From assembly GCA_012523015.1 (NCBI GenBank), contig JAAYJI010000106.1, positions 1 through 39,853 on the forward strand: 39,853 bases of DNA. The letters run 5' to 3'. A model generated the notes under the pieces. It was not told the DNA's origin. It did no database searches and saw only the letters and a list, made by a program, of their open reading frames with translations. The DNA is from Candidatus Hydrogenedentota bacterium (GTDB lineage: Bacteria; Hydrogenedentota; Hydrogenedentia; Hydrogenedentales; CAITNO01). Of the stretch, positions 16,048 to 30,766 are shown in pieces. A program made the translations under genes and the position numbers. Numbering within the stretch: the first letter of the stretch is position 1; the number at the start of each line of letters is the position of its first letter.

Positions 16048-19000
16048 TCAGACAAGCCGCACTCGTTTGTTTTTCGCACGATATCGTTCAACAATCCCGC
16101 GTTTTTCGAGACCAGTCAAGCTGCGCATTACGCGTTTTTCGAACTCGATCCGAGGATTCCCGCGCGTCAATACGCGCACTTCCTTGAGCACGCGAGAGGT
16201 TAAGGAATGCAATGTACATGATTGATTCGGACACTTCGATAAAGCAGAAAGGATAGCCTCCTGAATTTCCGCCGGGGCTATTTCCTCAGCGCGTCGGCCT
16301 GGTGGACTGCAGCCATTATCTGAATCGCCGGATGAGCAGTCTTCATCGTCACAAACGTCATCACCTTCATCGTCACAAACGTCATCATCTTCTTCGTCAC
16401 AAACGTCATCATCTTCTTCGACAATATCATCGCAAAGCTCATCGGAATCCTCTTCCTGCCAATCGTCATCGGGAGACGAATTCCTACTTAGTGATCGTGG
16501 AAAGATGCGCCGGTCCCGCAGTGTTTGCCAGAGTCCGACGAGCGCGTTCTTCTTGTTAGAGTAAAAGGCCGACTCTCTGACTCGAAAGAATTCCCAACCG
16601 CATCGCTCCAGTTGGCGTTGGCGTTGCATGTCCGCTTCGTAACGGTCTGCGCCGTGCCAATTGTCACCGTCGCATTCAACTGCCAGCCGCGCCTGTCCGC
16701 CTTCAACCACGAGGTCAATTCGTTTGCCCGCGACTTCATGCTGGGAAAGCACATTAAAATTCTTGCGAAGCAGTTCCAAGGCAACATCTACCTCGAACCA
16801 GCTTTCAAATGGCGCGGGAGGTTTAACAACACTCCGATTGTCTTGGACTGCCCGCCGTTCCAGTTCATCCCGTTCGATGCCGGCAATCTGTTGCGGCTTT
16901 GTGTTCTCGAAAAATTCGAGCAACTGTCGCCGAAGACAAGTTGCGCTAAGATCGTCGCAAGTGACGGAATGGAAAAGAATCATCATATCGCGGGCGCGGC
17001 TAGCAGCGACATTGAAGCGCCTCTCGTCCGCCGGCTTTGTGAGAGGGCCGATTCTTTTGTTGCTTGCCGCGACAAGCGACAAGAACATGATGTCGCGCTC
17101 GTCACCCTGAAAACTGTAGGGATTGCCACAGATCAGGCGTCGCCGTTCAATTTCCTCAGCCCCCAGGCGTTCAAGCAATAGTTTCTCAATTAAGCCTGCT
17201 TGCGCATTACCTTGAAGTATCACCACACCCATCGTTTTGTCATTGTACCGGCTGTCATGGCAGATCGCCATGATCCTATCGAGGATGGCTTCGGCTTCCG
17301 GCCGGTTAATTGTCAGGTTGTTTGAGCCTTCGCGATATCCGCCGCTTATAAAGACGTGCTCTAGCGGCGGCAAGCGGTCCGGGCCATACTGTCTCAAAGG
17401 AATGAGCGGCGTATCCGAATAGCAAAGATCGTTGCTGAAACGGATGATTTCCGGCATGCAACGAAAGTGCTCGCGTAGCGTGATCCGCTGAGTTCCGTAG
17501 AGGAGTTTCCCGTGGTCGAACAGGCTGCTCTCAACATCGAACGATGACTTGTATTGGAAATCATGAAGGAACTCTTCCATTAAGCGATGCACCGAGTCAC
17601 GGGACAAACCCACGGCATCCGGGCTTATCTGCTTGTCATCGCCAACAATCAATATCTTCTTCCCGAGATAGAGCAAGGGAAGCGCCTCGACGCCGCATTG
17701 CGAAGCCTCATCAACGATAATTACATCGAACATGCCTGGGGCGGGAGACACAGTGTCCCAAACGCGATGCAGGGGCATCACCCATGCGGGAACCGCCTCG
17801 CGACATTCGTCGAGGTGCCCTTGTGCTTCACGACGATGGCGCGGCGCATACTTCCCTGTCCCCTTGCCAAGCCGGCGCATGGACTGCCGCCAGGCTTCCA
17901 TGTGGCGGCGATGGTCTTCTTTTAGCCGTGAGAAGCAGAACGACCAAGCGTGAAGAGAAGCCAACTTCGCAATGATGCCGTGTATCTCATCCTCGATTTG
18001 TTTGGCGCACTTGGTGAGCGCCTGAACATCTTCCTTTCGAATGTATTCCTCGATCCAGTAGCGCGCCTGCCCCCAATGCCAAGCGTCGTTAATGTGTTGA
18101 ATTCGCTCCTCCCAATTTAGCTCATTGTAGGTTTGCTCTATGGATTTCGTGAACTGCGGAAGCAAGCGTCGTAGTCTTGAGAGATATTTGTGTACCTGCT
18201 GAAGGTGCTTGCGTTCCTTCTCCAGAACCCGAATCTTATTCGCGCACTGAGCGAACCCATCCATGTTGCGATTCTGAATAGCGTGCAGCAATTCATTTGT
18301 CAACGGATGCGCACCGTCCTTGTCGGCTATACGAGAAATGGGAGCTTCAACGCCTTGGATTTTCTCGCTGGCAAGCCGCTTGCCGATACGGGCCAATGCA
18401 AGGCGGCACGAGGAAACGATGCTCTCAATTTTGGATTCGTCGGCCCATATAGGCTCGCCCATACCCGGACATTGGCTTATCGCTTCCCGGCACTTGGCAA
18501 TAAGCTTTTCTAATGCCACGGTGTTTTCGAGCCCATCGCGCAACGACTTCAGGGCGGTTAATTGGAGAGCATATGGCCCTTCAACCTTTTCACTCCGCCC
18601 TTTCCAAAAACTCCATGCTTTTTCGCATTCAATACGAACGTGCATCGCATCGGCAAGATTTGTGAAATGCTCGACAGAGGAGCACTGACGACCGTCAATC
18701 TTCACAGTCTTGATAACATACAGCCGCTCTTTCACGAGTTTAGGCCGAAACCACCCCCGGCCCAGTTTCCCGCCATTCTCCATGTGCTCTTTCAATTTAC
18801 GGGCGTCGTCATGCAACGATATGATATCAGTGGTATCGGGGAATTCGACTCGGGACTCGTCAGCGGTCGCAACGAGTTCTTCAATGGATGCAATAACATC
18901 GCGCGTGAATCGCAGGAGTTCATGCCAAAGAGACGAGTCGCCGCCCAGAACATCGCGCAAAGCATCATTCATCCATGAATGCGGTGCTGCGAGAAGTCTT

Positions 19001-20937
19001 CTGCGCATGTCCCGGAAAGAAGAGAACGCGTTAAGACTTGCCTCAATGAACCGAGAATTGGCTTTTGCCAACAGATCGGCAAGGCGTTCGTCAGCCTCAC
19101 GCGCCGCGCTTTGTTCTTCTTCAATCGCCTTTGCCTCATTCTTCACGAGATTGGCGAAGTGGTCAGAAGGCGGCAACCCTTCGGGCAATGAGAGTTTAAG
19201 TTCCCGGCGCTTGTCCGGTGTGAAGTGGCGCAGGGCCTCAATGACATTTCGTAAATTGCTTGCATCAATCTGGCAAGTCTTGTTCAAAGGAACGGAATCC
19301 GTGAACCATTCGTAGTCGGCTTGATCTCGATTCACAGCTTCGGCGATTCTGGCCGCCGTCCCCCGATAGGTTCCTTCCGCAATGGAATGAGAAAGTATTT
19401 CAGACTCCCGAATAGCACGAAGCCGCCGGTTGACCTTCTCTTTCTCACTGCGGAGTTTCTGTAAGTGATCTTCAAGTTCCTCGCGCTTTTGCTTGGCGTT
19501 GTTTTCGTTCCAATCTTGATTCTCGCGAAGAATGCCACCCACACTCGATTCGAGTGAGCTACGTTCCTCAAGTCCGCTGCCAAGCAGATTGATGCAGAGG
19601 GGCCGCAATTCAACAGGTAAAAGACCTTGAAGTACTTGAAGTGCGCGCGGAGTCTTAGCCGTGATGAGCGTTCGCTGTCCCGTGGCATGCAGATGGCAAA
19701 TCAGATTGGCGATGGTATGGGATTTCCCAGTCCCAGGCGGGCCTTGCACAAGCAGGCCATTTGTTGCTCGAATCTTGTCCACAATACGGCGTTGTTCCTC
19801 ATTCGATGGTTTGGGAAAGAAAATCTCACCATCGAATGCAGCGTTTCTCTCTTTCGGATCAACCCTTGGTTCGCGATCATTCTTCGGACCGATTCCCGCG
19901 AGGTCCGCAAATTCGCTGGGGATGGGTTCGCCGTCTTCGATCTGTTCCTTGATCCGTTTCAAGGTTTCGGTAAGGCCTTTGGAGGAACGCTTGCGTAAGA
20001 TCAAGGCTGGAGCATATTCCACGATAGGCTTCTTCGTGGCGCGGATCCCTTTCGCTTCCAGCGAGTCATCATAATCGCCTTGCGAGTTGATCGAATGAAC
20101 CAAGGCCTGAAGGACACCTTCGATACAGTCTTTTTCCCACGGATTATCTTCGGCTTGGGTTAGTGAGTCCTTTGCGGTTTCCTCTGCGCGCGCCGGTTGC
20201 TCTTCGATGTCCAGCATGTCAAGTTCAGGCCGCAACCTGGCCCCATCGGTGTGGGGGCGAACTGTGAACTTCCCTAAGCGTGCTTCAAATTCAAGAACGG
20301 CGTCGGCGACAATCAGATGACGCCGGACGTGATGCCCGGTGGGTGTTTGCCAGGACAGCAAACCCAGACCAATCACGAGTTCATATTCTTCGCCAAGCCG
20401 AAGTTGTTCCTGATGGATGGCGAAGAGCGTGGAATAGACATTGTTTACTTTCTCCCACGCATTATGCTCTTCCGTCCAAGGCAACCACTTGTCTCTGACA
20501 TACCGATCCCATGCCTGTTGAATCTCAGGTTGGTTCTCAAGACGTTCAGTGCGCGGGACGGTCTCCGGCTGGTCCGAACCTTCGTACCAATTGGGATTTG
20601 GGATTTGCCGGGTGATTTCCGAGTTGAGTTGGGGCCGGTCATTCTTATTTCTAAGCGATGGATTGTTCGCCCAGTCCTTGCACTGAGCGGGAATGGGGGG
20701 AGGTTCCGGCTCGCGCCGGTTTTGTACTTCTAGCCATTCATCCGCTTCGTGTTCTTCGTCACTTCCCCATGCTTGCGTGAAACACCCCCGCTCACGGGGA
20801 ACTTTCGAAATCCAAAGCACCTTCTGATAGTCAGTAATATTACGGATCAGCTTCGTGCGCAGAGTTGCGAGCTTCAGTAGATAGTTAACAAGCCGAATAG
20901 CCTTTTCATGCTCGTTGCGTTGTTGTGTAGCGGTCAT
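16048..20937 (-). CDS. Giant SF1 helicase fused to MTES_1575-type restriction nuclease (defence-type)
   Basis: 1,629 aa. An N-terminal region (1-390) starts with KAIRLVNYLLKLATLRTKL. An SF1 helicase core is split by a long helical, partly coiled-coil insertion: Walker A GPPGTGKS at 399-406, Walker B VDEASQ with D1076/E1077, GDDKQ soon after, and motif VI (NVAASRAR) near 1307. A PD-(D/E)xK nuclease follows (RIDLVVEG, then VECDGDNWHG with E1421), the REase_MTES_1575/Vsr-like type. An acidic repeat (about 1505-1533) and a winged-helix-like tail (1550-1629) complete it. Large helicase-nuclease fusions of this kind occur in defence islands and are thought to act on invading DNA; this role is inference. 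The start overlaps the stop of a small upstream ORF (TAATG), and a terminator follows, so this is a compact two-gene unit beside a tRNA gene. Confidence 0.88.
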   Translation of the reverse strand: MTATQQRNEHEKAIRLVNYLLKLATLRTKLIRNITDYQKVLWISKVPRERGCFTQAWGSDEEHEADEWLEVQNRREPEPPPIPAQCKDWANNPSLRNKNDRPQLNSEITRQIPNPNWYEGSDQPETVPRTERLENQPEIQQAWDRYVRDKWLPWTEEHNAWEKVNNVYSTLFAIHQEQLRLGEEYELVIGLGLLSWQTPTGHHVRRHLIVADAVLEFEARLGKFTVRPHTDGARLRPELDMLDIEEQPARAEETAKDSLTQAEDNPWEKDCIEGVLQALVHSINSQGDYDDSLEAKGIRATKKPIVEYAPALILRKRSSKGLTETLKRIKEQIEDGEPIPSEFADLAGIGPKNDREPRVDPKERNAAFDGEIFFPKPSNEEQRRIVDKIRATNGLLVQGPPGTGKSHTIANLICHLHATGQRTLITAKTPRALQVLQGLLPVELRPLCINLLGSGLEERSSLESSVGGILRENQDWNENNAKQKREELEDHLQKLRSEKEKVNRRLRAIRESEILSHSIAEGTYRGTAARIAEAVNRDQADYEWFTDSVPLNKTCQIDASNLRNVIEALRHFTPDKRRELKLSLPEGLPPSDHFANLVKNEAKAIEEEQSAAREADERLADLLAKANSRFIEASLNAFSSFRDMRRRLLAAPHSWMNDALRDVLGGDSSLWHELLRFTRDVIASIEELVATADESRVEFPDTTDIISLHDDARKLKEHMENGGKLGRGWFRPKLVKERLYVIKTVKIDGRQCSSVEHFTNLADAMHVRIECEKAWSFWKGRSEKVEGPYALQLTALKSLRDGLENTVALEKLIAKCREAISQCPGMGEPIWADESKIESIVSSCRLALARIGKRLASEKIQGVEAPISRIADKDGAHPLTNELLHAIQNRNMDGFAQCANKIRVLEKERKHLQQVHKYLSRLRRLLPQFTKSIEQTYNELNWEERIQHINDAWHWGQARYWIEEYIRKEDVQALTKCAKQIEDEIHGIIAKLASLHAWSFCFSRLKEDHRRHMEAWRQSMRRLGKGTGKYAPRHRREAQGHLDECREAVPAWVMPLHRVWDTVSPAPGMFDVIIVDEASQCGVEALPLLYLGKKILIVGDDKQISPDAVGLSRDSVHRLMEEFLHDFQYKSSFDVESSLFDHGKLLYGTQRITLREHFRCMPEIIRFSNDLCYSDTPLIPLRQYGPDRLPPLEHVFISGGYREGSNNLTINRPEAEAILDRIMAICHDSRYNDKTMGVVILQGNAQAGLIEKLLLERLGAEEIERRRLICGNPYSFQGDERDIMFLSLVAASNKRIGPLTKPADERRFNVAASRARDMMILFHSVTCDDLSATCLRRQLLEFFENTKPQQIAGIERDELERRAVQDNRSVVKPPAPFESWFEVDVALELLRKNFNVLSQHEVAGKRIDLVVEGGQARLAVECDGDNWHGADRYEADMQRQRQLERCGWEFFRVRESAFYSNKKNALVGLWQTLRDRRIFPRSLSRNSSPDDDWQEEDSDELCDDIVEEDDDVCDEEDDDVCDDEGDDVCDDEDCSSGDSDNGCSPPGRRAEEIAPAEIQEAILSALSKCPNQSCTLHSLTSRVLKEVRVLTRGNPRIEFEKRVMRSLTGLEKRGIVERYRAKNKRVRLV
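16341..16421 (-). repeat. 24-bp tandem repeat encoding an acidic Cys-containing octapeptide
   Basis: Three copies of a 24-bp unit (16341-16364, 16365-16388, 16389-16412) and a partial fourth, inside the helicase gene. Copies differ by one or two bases. Each encodes eight residues of the form DDVCDDE plus one variable residue. Keeping to 24 bp preserves the frame, so copy number can change without breaking the protein. It lies between the nuclease and the C-terminal winged helix. Confidence 0.9.
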
Positions 20938-22295: not shown

Positions 22296-24350
22296 ATGTC
22301 AACTGCTTTTGAATCAACAATCACCGAGTTTCTAAAGACTCATCGGGACCAAATCGTAGGACAACTTGCACACGCTGTTGCTGACATAGGTATTGAAAGC
22401 CAGCACAGCCGCCAGATTAAAGTGTGGGGAAGCGAGATTGATCTATTGAAAGAGCACTTTGAAGCGTTGACCTTAAAGAATTCTGAAGTGGCGAATTGGC
22501 ATATTCTACTTGAATATGACTTGCCGCGAAGACAGAAACGACCGGATGTTGTGATCCTTGCCCACGACGTCATCCTTGTCTTGGAGTTTAAAGTTGGTAC
22601 TTCATCTTTTGACGCTGCTGCCCGTTGGCAAGTGATGGATTATGCCATGAACCTAAGAGATTTTCACGCGGAAAGTGCTAATCGTCTCATCGTCCCCGTC
22701 TTATGCGCAACAGAAGCCCAAGATTCGGATTTGAGAGAATCCATTTCTTTTTCCAAAGACATTGCCACTATTCAAGAAACAAATGCCCACAATCTTGGAG
22801 ACTGTTTATTGCGTGTCTTCCTAGCCGCGCGGCGCTATGACCGAGAAGCCATCAATCCAGAAGCCTGGACGCGCTCCGCGTATCGTCCCACGCCGACAAT
22901 TATTGAAGCGGCCGAAAGACTATATGAAAACCATGATGTCCGTGAGATTACCCACAGTTACGCGGAAAATCTCGACAAAACAACCGATAGAATTGCGGAA
23001 GTCATTCTCGAAGCGAAGACGATGCAGAAGTATACGATTGTTTTCATCACAGGCGTTCCGGGCGCGGGGAAAACGCTCACGGGGCTGAATGTGGTGCATG
23101 ATGCGACCATTCGCTCAAAACAAGGACCATCAGGGATCTTTCTTTCCGGAAATGGTCCGCTCATAAAAATTATCCGTGAGGCCCTTGTGCGAAACCAGCA
23201 ACGCCAGGGGCGCAAGCGTCAAGATTGTGAACATGAAGTATCGACCTTTATTCAAAATGTGCATAATTTTCTCCGTCATCATCGAGAGAATCTTGATGCT
23301 GTTCCTCATGAACATGTGGTCGTCTTCGACGAGGCACAACGTGCTTGGGATCTTGGTCAGATGAAGCGCAAATGGGGCGTTGAAACTTCAGAACCTGCCC
23401 AGCTTCTTGAGGTAATGGAACGTTTGCCAGGATGGTCGGTTGTTATCGCCTTGGTGGGCGGCGGTCAAGAAATTTTCAAAGGAGAAGCAGGGCTTGGTGA
23501 GTGGGGGAGAGCTCTTTTGTCTTCTGAGAAGCGGTGGTCCATCGTTGTTTCGCCGGAAGTATTGCATGGCGGCGCAAGTGTTGCCGGCCATTCTTTGTAT
23601 GAAGAAGGCAAACCCGAAGATTTAGAAATCATAGAAGAGCCCCTCGCTCACTTGAAAGTGAGTGTCAGAAGTCACCGTGCCCAATTGATTGCGGAATGGG
23701 TAAATGCTCTTTTGTTATTGGATGATGAGGAGGCCAAAGCGAAACTACCTGATCTAGATGAATTCCCCATCGTCGTGACCCGTGATTTAGATGCCGCCCG
23801 ACAGTGGCTTTGGGCACATAGTCAATTTGATCTTAATGCGCGTTGCGGCTTTGTCGCGACTTCCGGAGATACGCGCATGCGTGCCTACGGTCTAGAGCTT
23901 TCAACGGATTTTTTAGGTGGATATCCTTTCGAAAAGTGGTTCCTTTTCGGAAGTGAAGATATACGATCGAGTTTTCGGCTTGAGGTAGCAGCGACTGAAT
24001 TTCAATGTCAAGGACTCGAATTAGACTGGGTTGGTGTTTGTTGGGGTGGTGATCTCGTTCCTAGCATGAATGATAAAGAGTGGGAGTATCAAAAATTCAG
24101 AGGAACGAAATGGCAAAACTGTCGATCCGCGATTGATCAAAACTATATTCGCTACCGTTATCGCGTACTCCTTACTCGGGCTCGATTAGGTATGATAATT
24201 TGGGTGCCAAGAGGAGATTCTTCCGATAAGACGCGGGTCCCTCATCGATTTGACCGCATCCATGCACACCTGAGAGCTTCCGGCGTACCCGACCTAGAAC
24301 TATCTTCTATAACAAATCGTGACAGTCATCACTATCGTTTCCGTGGCTAG
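22296..24350 (+). CDS. DUF2075 (Schlafen group 3) ATPase/helicase with N-terminal nuclease-like domain
   Basis: 684 aa. Residues 70-100 carry a PD-(D/E)xK-like core: D84 in KRPDVVIL, then E97-F-K99 in VLEFKVG. The DUF2075 P-loop domain follows: Walker A GVPGAGKT at 253-260, Walker B VVVFDEAQ (345-348), a sensor-like ALVGGGQE, and a C-terminal arginine-finger-type motif in VLLTRARLGMIIWVPRG. Proteins of this kind are common in defence islands and next to restriction systems, acting on DNA or RNA; the exact role is unknown. AAGGAA stands 5 nt before the ATG. It sits on the 5' side of the tRNA gene, divergent from it, and converges with the NERD helicase gene. Confidence 0.85.
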   Translation: MSTAFESTITEFLKTHRDQIVGQLAHAVADIGIESQHSRQIKVWGSEIDLLKEHFEALTLKNSEVANWHILLEYDLPRRQKRPDVVILAHDVILVLEFKVGTSSFDAAARWQVMDYAMNLRDFHAESANRLIVPVLCATEAQDSDLRESISFSKDIATIQETNAHNLGDCLLRVFLAARRYDREAINPEAWTRSAYRPTPTIIEAAERLYENHDVREITHSYAENLDKTTDRIAEVILEAKTMQKYTIVFITGVPGAGKTLTGLNVVHDATIRSKQGPSGIFLSGNGPLIKIIREALVRNQQRQGRKRQDCEHEVSTFIQNVHNFLRHHRENLDAVPHEHVVVFDEAQRAWDLGQMKRKWGVETSEPAQLLEVMERLPGWSVVIALVGGGQEIFKGEAGLGEWGRALLSSEKRWSIVVSPEVLHGGASVAGHSLYEEGKPEDLEIIEEPLAHLKVSVRSHRAQLIAEWVNALLLLDDEEAKAKLPDLDEFPIVVTRDLDAARQWLWAHSQFDLNARCGFVATSGDTRMRAYGLELSTDFLGGYPFEKWFLFGSEDIRSSFRLEVAATEFQCQGLELDWVGVCWGGDLVPSMNDKEWEYQKFRGTKWQNCRSAIDQNYIRYRYRVLLTRARLGMIIWVPRGDSSDKTRVPHRFDRIHAHLRASGVPDLELSSITNRDSHHYRFRG

Positions 24351-24506: not shown

Positions 24507-26267
24507 CTATTTAATATTATGTAGTAACGTATTTTGCCAGTCCTGTTTGCATCTTTCGTGTAAATTTAATACTAGTTCAAGCCGCGCCCGCGTCATGCCA
24601 ATATACAGTAAAGCTTTGGAAATGTCTTGATTAATGTTTTCAATATCCGTGAGAATTATGGCGGCTGCCTCAAGCCCTTTAAAGGCATGAATACTTGAAA
24701 AACGTACAGCAGGTGTTTGGGATGATTCTCGATAAGGAAGGAAGGGGACGCTTGGATTTTCTTGTGACAAACTGTATGCGCAGGACTCCGAGTCTCTTTT
24801 TGTGGACAGTACAACAATATCTTCGACACTATACCGTTCGCACAGTTTGGACGTATATTTGTCTAAAAGATTCCGCTGGTTATTTGAGTTTTTATAAAAT
24901 GACACTTGAACATCCAAATCCGGTGCCTCATTCAAAACACGCGAATAACCGGGCTTCAAATTACAGCAGAACTCCACTGCTGCCGCGATCTGCGCGGTAT
25001 TTCTGCAGTTTACGCGAAGCGGGTAGGGCACATACGATAGGTTTCGCTTGTTAAGCATTGCCAAAGCGTCTTGTTGGGAGGTATTTTCTTGAGCTGTATA
25101 TATTGCTTGACGCTCAAAATCTCCAAACATGGCCCATTGTCCGCCTGTCAGCCCACCTTCCAGCAATAGGTCCAGTATGTCAAGATAATTCTCAAAGAGC
25201 AGATCTTGTGCCTCATCTATTACCAGTGTCTGAAAAGCCGGGATTTGAATGGTGCCATTAAAAATATTTTCAATTACCCGCAGTGGAAGCGTTTCAGTCC
25301 AGAAGTCAGGCCCGGCATTCTCGGGAACCGTGCTTTCTGATAGGGTTAATAGATAGTGATGGAATGTTCCACAAAAGACCAAGGATGGATCATTAAAAAA
25401 GAGCTCTCCCATTTCATCAGAAATCCAGTTGCCAAGGTGTCGGTTATAACAGAGAAAGAGGGTATTTTTTTTCTGACTTATGCTGCGCCGCGCCATTTCA
25501 ATGGCGAGAAATGTTTTCCCTGTACCGGCAGGTCCTTTAAACAGGATCCGTGGATTTTCCAGCATAATGTCCAAGGCTGAAAATTGTTCTTCCGTAAAGC
25601 GGCGTATTCTATTTTCGGTATCAGCAAGTGTAGATTTGAATAAAACAGGATATTCAAAATTTGAGCGGAACACATTCATTAATTTTTTGACATGTTCCGT
25701 TTTGGGCCGGCTTTTACCGGGGCTATACCATTTGCAGGAAGGTGTGCCCTGAATGTGATTATGGGCGCCAGCTAGAATACGCAAACAACATGCTGCAATA
25801 CCCTTTCTAAGCAGTTGACTTCGATTAACATACTGCCACCGATGCCATTCAGGTGATTCTTCTTCAAAGTCTATTCCCGTAAAAATAACGCCGAACCAGA
25901 AAAGCAGTCCGGCTAAAGAGGGTTCTTGATCTATTGCCGTCTTCATGACGGAATGCATAGCATCTGACGCTTGACGAAAAGGCCCTACAGATGACTTCGT
26001 CGCGTGTAACCCTCTGCCATAAACCCATAATCCATCCTTGCGTTCTACAGCGCCTGATTTAACTTCCAGACACAAAATACCTTCTCCGGGGACAACGACA
26101 AGGAAGTCAATTTCACCCATTTGTCTTTGGGAGTGGTCGGCAACGCCCAAAGAATGAAAAACAACCCAATCCTTACATTCTTGTGTTTTCTGAAAACGGT
26201 CAAAGAGCATGCGTTCACCGGGGGATACGCATGAGGGTAATATAATTGGGGGAACCATTTTTGCCAT
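24507..26267 (-). CDS. NERD-domain UvrD-like helicase
   Basis: 586 aa. An N-terminal NERD nuclease-related domain (about 15-90) has D54 in GEIDFLVV and E68-V-K70 in CLEVKSG. An SF1A helicase follows: Walker A GPAGTGKT at 245-252, Walker B VIDEAQD (351-355), GDFERQAIY (motif III), VNCRNT (motif IV), SIHAFKGLE (motif V) and IGMTRARLEL (motif VI). All motifs look intact. NERD-helicases are found on plasmids and in defence islands; a DNA processing or degradation role is likely but unproven. The start has only a weak ribosome site (GAGAG), and a second ATG four codons in is possible. A good promoter is visible upstream. It converges with the DUF2075 gene, 156 nt apart. Confidence 0.88.
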   Translation of the reverse strand: MAKMVPPIILPSCVSPGERMLFDRFQKTQECKDWVVFHSLGVADHSQRQMGEIDFLVVVPGEGILCLEVKSGAVERKDGLWVYGRGLHATKSSVGPFRQASDAMHSVMKTAIDQEPSLAGLLFWFGVIFTGIDFEEESPEWHRWQYVNRSQLLRKGIAACCLRILAGAHNHIQGTPSCKWYSPGKSRPKTEHVKKLMNVFRSNFEYPVLFKSTLADTENRIRRFTEEQFSALDIMLENPRILFKGPAGTGKTFLAIEMARRSISQKKNTLFLCYNRHLGNWISDEMGELFFNDPSLVFCGTFHHYLLTLSESTVPENAGPDFWTETLPLRVIENIFNGTIQIPAFQTLVIDEAQDLLFENYLDILDLLLEGGLTGGQWAMFGDFERQAIYTAQENTSQQDALAMLNKRNLSYVPYPLRVNCRNTAQIAAAVEFCCNLKPGYSRVLNEAPDLDVQVSFYKNSNNQRNLLDKYTSKLCERYSVEDIVVLSTKRDSESCAYSLSQENPSVPFLPYRESSQTPAVRFSSIHAFKGLEAAAIILTDIENINQDISKALLYIGMTRARLELVLNLHERCKQDWQNTLLHNIK

Positions 26268-26679: not shown

Positions 26680-27891
26680 CTATTTGTCATCCGAAATAAT
26701 TCCCTTTAGAGCGGGTAAAAAGGCTTCAGCAAAAAGATGATTACCCTTGGGAGTGGGGTGTCCATCGAGGTCAAAGTATAAATCAGGATCCTCCTGATGG
26801 GCTCTAAATTGATCGGTAACCCCGTAATAGGGAAGTTGTGTCTTTTCAGCGGCTTGTTCAATGCTTTCATCAGGACTGGTCGTTTGGAGCAGCCACTCCG
26901 GAAGATTGTACCCGACCCGCCTCATATTGAGTAGGGATGCCCGGTTAACATAGGGACCTTCCGGTATATTGACGACAACGGTTTTAGCGCCGTAGCGATC
27001 TGCCACGCCTTTGATGCGTTTGAAATGAATCGCTGTACGGTCAATGCAGGTGTGTGTCCACCCGTCGTCCATGTCCATGGTCAATATGTAGAAGTCCGGA
27101 TTTTGCATCGCGAGATCGACCAAATAAGGATTGAGCATTCCTTCCCGATACGCTTCTTTCACTTCATCATCGAAACTATCGAAACGTTCTTTTTGCTCCG
27201 TCGTCATGGATTCTAAGAAAGTTGCCGCAGTGTTCGCTGTCCATTTTCGATTGTCCTCGGCGCTGCTGATTTGCCTGGGCATTTCCGTATGACTGCGGCC
27301 GCCATATTCTTTTTCACGTCGGAGATCTCGCAGATAGAGGCTAAGATTCGGGTATATTTTCCGTAAGATTTCACCGACCTTTTGCCTGGGCAATGCCGCT
27401 TCTTCTGGTCCTGCCGCGCGGATGTCATCGCCCTGAAGCATGCAAACAAGCACTAAATCGGGGCGCAATAAAGGAATAGCTTTTTCCGCAATCTCAGAAT
27501 AAAACGGCGGTCCCGATCCCGGTTTCCCCAAATTGAGGATTTCCACCTCGTAGCCGGATTCATGGGCAAGTTGCTGCAAGATTCTGGGCCAGCTGTTTTC
27601 AATATCCACGCCCCATCCATAGGTAAAGGAATCGCCTATGGCAAGGATTCGATAGCTGTCGCCCCGTTCCCGGGGAAGTTCTCTGTCCCGTATGCCAATT
27701 GAATTGATGTAAACGGAATAGCGGAATTCCAAGGACTCATAGTGTTGCTCGGCAAAAGGCGGGAAAATTAATTCGATGGTCTCCGGCAGTCCGGGAACTT
27801 TTCGTAGCTTACCAAACACACGGTCCGCGGCGACGCTAAGGCCCACTACCAATAATACAGAACACAGCACAAGTGCCATATTTTTAAACAT
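26680..27891 (-). CDS. Secreted SGNH/GDSL-family hydrolase
   Basis: 403 aa. An N-terminal signal or anchor helix covers residues 1-22. Block I is AIGDSFTYGWG with the nucleophile S88. A second block is LNLGKPGSGPP, a third is LVCMLQGDDI, and the catalytic Asp/His pair is in DLDGHPTPKGNHLF near the C-terminus. Such proteins are lipases, esterases or O-acetyl transfer/removal enzymes acting on polysaccharides. The long stretch between blocks (about 160-330) is unassigned. No ribosome site is visible before the chosen ATG; a second ATG five codons in is equally unsupported. The gene stands apart from its neighbours (310 bp upstream gap). Confidence 0.8.
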   Translation of the reverse strand: MFKNMALVLCSVLLVVGLSVAADRVFGKLRKVPGLPETIELIFPPFAEQHYESLEFRYSVYINSIGIRDRELPRERGDSYRILAIGDSFTYGWGVDIENSWPRILQQLAHESGYEVEILNLGKPGSGPPFYSEIAEKAIPLLRPDLVLVCMLQGDDIRAAGPEEAALPRQKVGEILRKIYPNLSLYLRDLRREKEYGGRSHTEMPRQISSAEDNRKWTANTAATFLESMTTEQKERFDSFDDEVKEAYREGMLNPYLVDLAMQNPDFYILTMDMDDGWTHTCIDRTAIHFKRIKGVADRYGAKTVVVNIPEGPYVNRASLLNMRRVGYNLPEWLLQTTSPDESIEQAAEKTQLPYYGVTDQFRAHQEDPDLYFDLDGHPTPKGNHLFAEAFLPALKGIISDDK

Positions 27892-28201: not shown

Positions 28202-29380
28202 TCAATTAAGATCGGTTCCGGAAAAGAGGGCGCGGAACATACGTGCGCGCTCAGCAGCAAGAGCGACGGGATTCGCTGGAATTTCGTGTAAAATCTGCAA
28301 ATGTGCTTGCTGACATTCTAAAATGGCACGATTAAGGGCGTTTTGATTGTACCCTGATGCCAGGCCTAGGGCGGTGCCTAATCGGATCATAGACGCAAGT
28401 GCCAGTGCTTCACCCATGCCCAGCAGTCTGGCGCTTCGTGCGATGCCTAAGGCACGGCCGATGTGGTCAAGCAAGCGTTCACGTTGATTGCTCAAGAGTT
28501 TTTCCCGTGCTTTTTCTTCCTCCCGAATAATGGCGGCAATGACTTGCTCGATTTGAAAGAGCATTTCCCCTTCAGATACTCCCAGCGTATCTTGACTGTT
28601 GAGCAAAAAAAGATTTCCAACCGTTTCATCCAAGTTCGTATGAAAGCTGCTGAATGCGTCGAGATAAAGGCTTTGTTGCAGCACGGGTTCGACATCAGTT
28701 CTCGGTATTTTTCCCGCTGTTGTGGAAGCAGGAGCGGCGCTTTTGGTTTCGCCCAAGCTCAAACCACGAAAGAGAAGGCGACGGGGACGGCAAAGTTCGA
28801 TGATTCTCGGAATTTCTTGAGTCATTACAATGGCGGGCAAGTGGAGCAAGGCGGACAGATTCAGACCTGTGCCCACCAAGCGCAAGGAAGAACACAGATA
28901 TCCGTAGCGTTCATGATAAGCGTAGTCAAGATGCTTGCCAAGCTGCGAATCCAAGCGGTCTATACTTTCCCAAAGATGTTGAAGCGTGTCGTCTCCCGAT
29001 ACAGCATGGAATAAGAGGTGGTCAAAAACATTTACACCGACGGAGAGCGTCTGTTTTTGATCGACAAAAACGCCGCGCAAACCCGGTTCTATGAGAAACT
29101 CGTAAGGAACAACGCGACGTTCCGACAAGAAGCGGATCATGTTCGTGTCCATATCGGCGGACGAATAATAGGACTGTTCGACATCGGGGAAAACGACTGC
29201 CAGCGTATTTAATATGCGTGCCTCTATACTGCGTCTTTCCTCAATGGAAGAGCGTCCGGGAAAATTAAATCCTTCCGAATTGCGTGCTAGGGAACATTGA
29301 TATAAAATGACGGGCTCAGGCGCATTTTGTGTTGTCGTAATCCAGCGAGGAAAAGATTCGGTCAAAGAATGAATAGCCAT
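28202..29380 (-). CDS. McsB-like ATP:guanido phosphotransferase homologue lacking catalytic residues
   Basis: 392 aa, full length for McsB (about 360), with the phosphagen-kinase fold recognisable throughout: SLARNSEGFNFPGR, VGTGLNLSALLHLPAIVMT, LLNSQDTLGVSE and the helical C-terminal domain. McsB phosphorylates arginines to mark proteins for ClpCP. Compared with Bacillus McsB as I recall it, SSRIR becomes YQCS, NEEDH becomes N117-VF-DH, SCPTN becomes SSLRL and GLRAS becomes GLNLS. The arginines that bind ATP phosphates, the catalytic Glu and the active-site Cys are therefore all replaced. The C-terminal RDxxRA phospho-arginine motif also appears altered. It follows mcsA by 8 nt in one operon. 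This looks like a pseudokinase kept as a binding or adaptor protein, not a broken gene, because the frame is intact. Confidence 0.85.
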   Translation of the reverse strand: MAIHSLTESFPRWITTTQNAPEPVILYQCSLARNSEGFNFPGRSSIEERRSIEARILNTLAVVFPDVEQSYYSSADMDTNMIRFLSERRVVPYEFLIEPGLRGVFVDQKQTLSVGVNVFDHLLFHAVSGDDTLQHLWESIDRLDSQLGKHLDYAYHERYGYLCSSLRLVGTGLNLSALLHLPAIVMTQEIPRIIELCRPRRLLFRGLSLGETKSAAPASTTAGKIPRTDVEPVLQQSLYLDAFSSFHTNLDETVGNLFLLNSQDTLGVSEGEMLFQIEQVIAAIIREEEKAREKLLSNQRERLLDHIGRALGIARSARLLGMGEALALASMIRLGTALGLASGYNQNALNRAILECQQAHLQILHEIPANPVALAAERARMFRALFSGTDLN

Positions 29381-29388
29381 AACTTTTT

Positions 29389-29904
29389 TTATCCTGATAC
29401 AGTCGTTTCCTGGGCTTTGCGTTCCATCCGTGCGATTTCATCGCGTAATCGCGCTGCTTCTTCGTAATTCTCTTCTTTGACCATTTGCCGCAACAGCACG
29501 CGCTTCTCCCGAATATCTTTGCTAAGACGTACCCGGTCATCATCGCATTTAAATACTTTGCCGCGGTAGCTGGTTTCCGGCTGGATTTCCTGTAACATGG
29601 CATCGATTTCTTTTTCGAAGGCGGTGAAACAGGTTGGACACCCTGCTTGACCGAGTTCGAGCAGAAAGGCGGCCATAAGCCCACATCCGGGGCATTTAGT
29701 CTGCCCGCTTCGATCGATGTTGACCTCCGCTTTTCCGCCGCCGCCACTGCTTTCGGGCTTCGGAATGGGAAAAGAGAAACTCGCGGTACCTTCTTGGAAT
29801 GCTTTGTAACAGTCAGGACAGAGTGCGTGCCGTATCGCTTTGCCATCTACCACTTCTGTAAATTTAACGGAGGCAAGATTTTTCTTGCAGAAATTGCACA
29901 TCAT
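29389..29904 (-). CDS. mcsA: McsA-like zinc-finger/UVR protein
   Basis: 171 aa from the ATG at 29904 (AGGTG, 6 nt upstream; a GTG at 29913 and an ATG three bases later are alternatives). It begins MCNFCKKN, giving a first CxxC, paired with CPDCYKAF. A second zinc module is CPGCG with CPTCF. The C-terminus is a UVR motif (about 130-165; LRQMVKEENYEEAARLRDE). McsA activates the McsB arginine kinase and helps load ClpC; UVR domains mediate protein contact. The zinc ligands and UVR motif are intact, unlike the catalytic site of the McsB homologue directly downstream. A minus-strand TATACT lies 20 nt upstream (29929-29924), but its -35 is poor. Confidence 0.85.
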   Translation of the reverse strand: MMCNFCKKNLASVKFTEVVDGKAIRHALCPDCYKAFQEGTASFSFPIPKPESSGGGGKAEVNIDRSGQTKCPGCGLMAAFLLELGQAGCPTCFTAFEKEIDAMLQEIQPETSYRGKVFKCDDDRVRLSKDIREKRVLLRQMVKEENYEEAARLRDEIARMERKAQETTVSG

Positions 29905-30067: not shown

Positions 30068-30766
30068 TCAAGGTTTCTCTTGTGCGGTAGTCTCAATGAA
30101 TTCCAAGGACGCGCGAAGCTTTTGTATCCACAGCGCGTATCCCTCTGTATTCAAATGTACACCGTCCCCTGTGTGGTATGAGGGCTTCAAATTGCCCGTA
30201 TCATCCGCCAAGATAGGCGTCATATCAAGGAAGGCGTAATCCTTTTTCTCGCAGAGATCTTTCAAACATGTATTGAGTTCAAGAATCCGTTGGTTATAGT
30301 GTTTTTCTTCCGGTTTGTTACGTTCATCCAAGGGCAGAATGGCGCTGAATAGCAAGGGAACATGGGCAGGAACCGCCTGTATAATCTTTTGATAATTCTC
30401 AACAATCGCGTCATTATCCCGTCGGCTCAGATCATTGACACCGATGGCGAAGACGATGGCCGCCGCTTGTTCTGCGGATTTGTAGACGGGAAGCCGCTCA
30501 AGAACGCCGAGGGTCGTATCGCTGCCGATGCCGTAATTAATAGCGCTTGGGTGAACCGCAGCCACGCATAATCCTTGGGTGATGCTGTCGCCGATAAAAA
30601 GCACCGATCCTTCCGGCACATTACCATCCATGTATTTATGATAAACCAGCATACGATTAAAATGTTCTGTAATATCCGGATTCGCTTCTTGTGTGTATCC
30701 GTGGCTGCTCAAGCCCGCTATCAGCAGACCCAAGACAAAGAGACAGCTTATCTTTTGAATTTTCAT
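30068..30766 (-). CDS. Secreted SGNH hydrolase (PAF-acetylhydrolase-like)
   Basis: 232 aa. A signal peptide spans residues 1-25 (LFVLGLLIAGLSSHGYTQ). Block I is LFIGDSITQGL with nucleophile S61, block II is NYGIGSDTT, block III is AIGVNDLS and block V is DGVHLNTEGY with the catalytic Asp and His. This is the compact GDSL-2/PAF-AH-beta type common in PVC-type bacteria, usually acting on acetylated glycans. All catalytic blocks are present. The ribosome site is weak. It is not close to either neighbour, so it is probably transcribed alone. Confidence 0.85.
   Translation of the reverse strand: MKIQKISCLFVLGLLIAGLSSHGYTQEANPDITEHFNRMLVYHKYMDGNVPEGSVLFIGDSITQGLCVAAVHPSAINYGIGSDTTLGVLERLPVYKSAEQAAAIVFAIGVNDLSRRDNDAIVENYQKIIQAVPAHVPLLFSAILPLDERNKPEEKHYNQRILELNTCLKDLCEKKDYAFLDMTPILADDTGNLKPSYHTGDGVHLNTEGYALWIQKLRASLEFIETTAQEKP

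Follow-up and report, generated by a model that had tools for sequence, protein, structure and literature searches.

The closest described systems are the McsB arginine kinases of Bacillus, Geobacillus and Staphylococcus (PDB 6tv6, 6fh1-3, 8gqd and 8wtb), which are encoded next to their partner McsA. Such McsBs label damaged proteins with phosphate, which marks them for destruction. In B. subtilis McsB, mutagenesis identified R29, R31, R34, R125, R176, R207 and R337 as essential, and R-to-K substitutions at R255, R272, R281 and R341 abolished stimulation by McsA and left autophosphorylation (PMC7235348). In the S. aureus complex, the McsB loop Y147-Y153 touches the zinc finger of McsA, which has been described as positioning the catalytic cysteine of McsB (reviewed in PMC12467219). 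Part of the proteolytic role of McsB is kept by the laboratory mutant McsB(C167S) of B. subtilis, which has no kinase activity: the mutant stabilized MgsR less than deletion did, and the authors read this as a kinase-independent adaptor role, possibly for ClpX (PMC7235348).

We investigated a McsB homologue from Candidatus Hydrogenedentota. The nearest relatives found outside this phylum are the McsBs of Planctomycetota and Omnitrophota (loci L070-L139), which keep all catalytic motifs and whose genes are preceded by an McsA-like gene at most of the loci read. Neither a pseudokinase of the phosphagen-kinase fold nor McsB in Hydrogenedentota was described in the papers found by a literature search, which took in a minority of subscription papers and may have missed an earlier mention. 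Chlamydia was considered as a precedent and set aside, its McsB being described in papers as a putative arginine kinase.

A McsB fold that has lost its catalytic residues

The window, the whole 39,853-nucleotide stretch of contig JAAYJI010000106.1 that was analysed, encodes a McsB homologue directly after McsA (Table 1). The protein scored 108.8 bits against PF00217 (ATP-gua_Ptrans; curated cut-off 22.4), placing it in this domain family. When the cut-offs of the two McsB equivalog models were applied to it, it fell below both, with 174 against 500 for NF053707 and 208.6 against 385 for NF002194. An AlphaFold2 model built from 57 natural sequences had a pLDDT of 92.6 and a pTM of 0.90, and all of its best PDB matches were solved McsBs, with TM-scores of 0.86-0.89 to 6tv6 and 6fh1 (normalised to those chains). 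The predicted structure is a McsB fold with its C-terminal dimerisation domain, and the first-pass annotation, made from the letters of the sequence, had likewise described a homologue that keeps the fold, length and frame of arginine kinases. Like the McsBs of Bacillus, Geobacillus and Staphylococcus, it combines a two-domain layout with an adjacent mcsA gene.

Table 1. Coordinates of the mcsA-mcsB locus and its motifs; residue ranges are those of the window proteins, and residues lost or kept follow B. subtilis numbering unless equated.
Feature	Position	Strand	Remarks
McsA, two four-cysteine zinc sites and UVR motif	29389..29904 or 29913	(-)	directly upstream; stop 8 nt before mcsB ATG
McsB-like putative pseudokinase	28202..29380	(-)	392 aa; ATG start, no internal stop; phosphotransferase fold and dimerisation domain
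Residues 26-34, LYQCSLARN, degenerate SSRIRLARN	29279..29305	(-)	phosphate-binding R29, R31 lost; R34, N35 kept
Residues 117-125, NVFDHLLFH, degenerate NEEDHIRIQ	29006..29032	(-)	E120, E121, R125 lost; N119, D122, H123 kept
Residues 155-161, YHERYGY, McsA-contact loop counterpart	28898..28918	(-)	matches S. aureus McsB Y147-Y153; pattern kept
Residues 161-176, YLCSSLRLVGTGLNLS, degenerate YLTSCPTNVGTGLRAS	28853..28900	(-)	C167, R176 lost; GTGL kept
Residues 206-251, lineage-specific insertion region, ~39 aa	28628..28765	(-)	replaces lid loop carrying catalytic E212
Residues 370-379, NPVALAAERA, degenerate pArg pocket	28244..28273	(-)	R337, D338 lost; R341, A342 kept = R378, A379

Active-site residues are numbered here as in B. 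subtilis McsB, and eight were followed as the essential set: R29, R31, E121, R125, C167, R176, R207 and E212. The B. subtilis reference was built from PDB alignments, which cover residues 7-211 and 216-329; for the N-terminal start, the short gap at YGEG and everything after 329 we used what we take to be the native sequence. The R337-D-x-x-R341-A pattern supplied in this way agrees with PMC7235348. Aligned to this reference, the window protein has Q28 for R29, S30 for R31, V118 for E120, F119 for E121, L123 for R125, S165 for C167, N174 for R176 and N249 for E212, and in the phosphoarginine (pArg) pocket L374 for R337 and A375 for D338. A single member of the essential set is left, R207 in the RG motif (window R205); it is also all that remains of the arginines that bind the ATP phosphates (R29, R125, R176 and R207), the glutamates E121 and E212, and C167. 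R34 and N35 of the LARN motif are intact. No catalytic residue was found at a shifted position: the sole nearby cysteine, C163, stands opposite T165 in the alignment, and relatives do not conserve it. The alignment thus bears out the first-pass annotation, which had listed the replacement of the phosphate-binding arginines (SSRIR to YQCS), the catalytic glutamate of NEEDH, the cysteine of SCPTN and the arginine of GLRAS. The residues read strongly support the view that the window McsB would be a catalytically dead pseudokinase.

In eight families of the phylum and part of a ninth, an insertion of ~30-65 residues takes the place of the lid loop with E212, and it contains a Q-[SC]-L-[YL]-x-D motif that recurs among them. 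In the window protein, AlphaFold2 modelled residues 231-240 of the insertion with high confidence and the preceding stretch with low confidence. The insertion is possibly a docking element.

Two GDSL/SGNH hydrolase genes that differ from each other flank the mcsAB pair (26680-27891 and 30068-30766, both on the minus strand). Elsewhere in the window, a 1629-aa helicase with a C-terminal MTES_1575 restriction-endonuclease-like domain (16048-20937, minus strand) matches PADLOC PDC-S37 with 186 bits, and a 684-aa protein with a Schlafen group 3 helicase domain (22296-24350, plus strand) matches the candidate defence family PDC-S41 with 760 bits. Convergent with the latter gene is one for a 586-aa NERD-nuclease and helicase protein (24507-26267, minus strand; best PADLOC match RTasNERD-Hel, 141 bits). 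The three matches together likely mark a defence island.

Loss throughout the phylum and retention under selection

The closest relatives of the window McsB in a collection scan all came from Candidatus Hydrogenedentota, and we examined 68 genomes, a number at which phylum, class and order coincide. (Locus L060 and the contig of G003, a genome of the window's genus, are one and the same.) McsB was present in 62 of the 68, at one locus apiece. The losses recur in all 59 Hydrogenedentota McsBs compared, as the first-pass annotation had proposed to check: 18 keep none of the eight essential residues, 24 keep one, 11 keep two and six keep three, and the catalytic C167 is absent from every one (0/59). 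By contrast, all eight are present in 67 of 68 McsBs from Planctomycetota, Omnitrophota and other outside groups, and seven in the remaining one. This sole exception, L070 from a termite-gut planctomycete, reads ACRIRLARN, SCITN and GTGLK. The pArg pocket is lost as well; of R337, D338 and R341, only the last is kept, R337 being found in 2/59 and D338 in 0/59. Around the cleft, N119, H123, R34 and GTGL are nearly invariant, and the positions of R29, R31, E121, R125, C167, R207 and E212 vary from genome to genome.

A second, intact McsB was also sought. PF00217 has one locus in the genome of the window itself, which is 3.7 Mb in size and 95.8% complete. A PF00217 search whose positive control worked found no intact copy there or in the 67 relatives: intact McsBs scored 225-238 bits in 6/6 comparator genomes, and the best score in the whole phylum was 162 bits. 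In a phylogenetic tree, a single branch (SH-aLRT 100) sets off all Hydrogenedentota McsBs, which is most simply explained by one loss that was then inherited. Families f4 and f5, which branch near the active McsBs, retain scattered essential residues, as expected if the cysteine and the SCPTN loop went first.

The gene is kept under selection and is not decaying. Every complete Hydrogenedentota copy is a full-length open frame, pairwise dN/dS between close pairs is 0.04-0.20, at some 20 positions a residue that is rare in active McsBs has become fixed or almost fixed (for example Q110, L166 and A314), and the fold is predicted to be that of McsB. The open frames and low dN/dS rule out a frameshift, pseudogene or assembly artefact. 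The long branches and many unusual substitutions might suggest a functionless relic; however, the same observations, the conserved operon and the presence of the gene in most genomes of the phylum leave this reading a negligible chance, and we count it as already refuted by dN/dS and conservation.

Partners of the degenerate McsB

The McsA of the window retains C3, C6, C29, C32, C71, C74, C89 and C92 and the UVR signature, as the first-pass annotation had stated. All eight cysteines and the signature are found in every McsA of a 23-member alignment, and the four CxxC pairs in the other McsAs read. The six genomes that lack McsB also lack McsA; in two further genomes without a detectable McsA, the mcsB match starts at a contig end. 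Features of McsB that concern McsA are kept in turn. The McsA-contact loop has the same pattern in Hydrogenedentota as in active McsBs, and the arginines required for the McsA response persist in the dimerisation domain, with R255 (R292 in the window protein) in 57/59, R272 (R309) in 59/59, R281 in 47/59 and R341 in 58/59. R86, also McsA-responsive, is present in 31/59, and in 1/68 of the active comparators, so it is not conserved there either. R255 and R272 may be kept for reasons of fold or dimerisation only. The cysteine that S. aureus McsA is described as positioning is absent in Hydrogenedentota.

In most of the phylum the operon also includes clpC, an arrangement shared with the McsB loci of Bacillus, Geobacillus and Staphylococcus. 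Outside the window's family (f1), mcsB is directly followed by clpC, with the same orientation and after 4-442 nt, in 35 of the 39 genomes whose sequence reaches far enough, across eight families. In f1, clpC is not beside mcsAB; in the window's genome it is on another contig, and the ClpC that it encodes has its pArg-pocket residues intact and, in the middle domain, a UVR-like stretch. We considered this pocket as an indicator of pArg use and found it uninformative: its residues T7, E32 and E106 are intact in 36/36 ClpCs, and they also hold the resting state. The intact pocket is compatible with pArg made by another enzyme. In two f1 genomes, a short gene directly follows mcsB (L039:1219-2055 in G014 and L046:906-1724 in G016, both minus strand). 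It encodes a ClpC-like N-terminal domain alone, with two Clp_N-like repeats, a UVR-like tail and no ATPase. Lying where other genomes have clpC, this stand-alone domain might serve as a decoy or as a docking partner.

Other parts of the pArg pathway are missing. The CTGNTCRS loop of YwlE-type phosphatases occurs in 0/72 low-molecular-weight phosphatase (LMWPc) hits of the phylum, with none in the window's own genome, and CTGNTCRS phosphatases were found in five of six comparator genomes, namely all five planctomycetes. The threonine of this loop, as in YwlE, presumably marks an arginine phosphatase. A single amino-acid change decides arginine-phosphatase specificity (reviewed in PMC12467219). 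CtsR was detected in 0/68 Hydrogenedentota genomes, an absence expected outside Firmicutes anyway.

Proposed regulation of ClpC by binding, and the competing explanations

The best explanation, to which we give a probability of about 0.66, is that a dead McsB together with McsA works by binding, with no phosphorylation of arginines, and in this way regulates ClpC or supplies it with clients. A catalytically inactive member of the McsB lineage, its kinase activity lost before the Hydrogenedentota radiated, would form a complex with McsA through the retained contact loop and the dimerisation domain, and this complex would be a scaffold or binding adaptor for ClpC. The UVR and zinc modules of McsA and the McsB platform would dock clients on ClpC, or switch ClpC, and no phosphoarginine mark would be put on clients. 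What we infer from sequence is that the protein lacks activity and binds McsA and ClpC, and that the outcome for ClpC is activation or client delivery and not inhibition. An adaptor acting by binding alone had been suggested in the first-pass annotation, and it finds indirect support in the co-occurrence with McsA, the mcsA-mcsB-clpC operon, and the McsA-response arginines and contact loop; the operon argument does not extend to the window's own family. The missing YwlE-type signature and CtsR and the precedent of McsB(C167S) would also favour such a role, again indirectly. That mutant carries one engineered change, whereas the Hydrogenedentota state is natural, phylum-wide and spread over many residues. 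The proposed mode of action, in which ClpC is bound and clients are brought to it without a covalent mark, resembles that of MecA-type ClpC adaptors; the MecA fold is unrelated to that of McsB.

Binding could also serve restraint. McsA and the pseudo-McsB might hold ClpC in its resting state, or McsB might sequester McsA, with release on thiol or metal stress through the zinc sites. The McsA of B. subtilis senses redox state and changes partners, and McsB and ClpC of that species hold one another; in Hydrogenedentota all zinc cysteines of McsA are kept, and an operon with clpC fits any ClpC regulator. However, the known effects of McsA and McsB on client turnover are positive, and we consider inhibition unlikely, even though delivery of clients and restraint of ClpC cannot be told apart by any sequence feature. 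Less likely still is a noncanonical or residual kinase, or other ATP-dependent chemistry, in a rearranged active site. Some pseudokinases of other folds have proved active, and the near-invariant residues around the cleft would suit such an enzyme, but the phosphate-binding and catalytic positions are free to vary, unlike those of a conserved new active site, and the loop of E212 has given way to a variable insertion in many members. The first-pass annotation had also suggested a regulatory variant of protein-arginine phosphorylation; the search of the rest of the genome, which turned up no arginine kinase of this family, speaks against it. A protein that reads pArg made by a different kinase and brings marked proteins to ClpC would be compatible with the intact ClpC pockets, and pArg has been reported in Mycolicibacterium, a group without a known McsB (PMC9604228). 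Against such a reader stand the lost McsB pocket and the lack of a YwlE-type phosphatase signature, and we judge it highly improbable.

Regulation of ClpC by a kinase-dead McsB with McsA would set the Hydrogenedentota apart within a familiar framework. The case is a variant of the known McsA-McsB-ClpC module and not a new kind of system. Compared with the proteins of Bacillus, Geobacillus and Staphylococcus, the window McsB has lost seven of eight essential residues. On balance we favour the view that the whole phylum runs ClpC with an McsA-McsB pair that permanently gave up arginine phosphorylation, the McsB fold serving as a pure docking platform. Annotation by name would wrongly credit Hydrogenedentota with arginine phosphorylation. 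With the gene, McsA and the ClpC link kept and the kinase half lost, the phylum offers a ready-made test of McsA-McsB without phosphoarginine; if the proposal is true, nature has here split the adaptor function of the pair from its kinase function.
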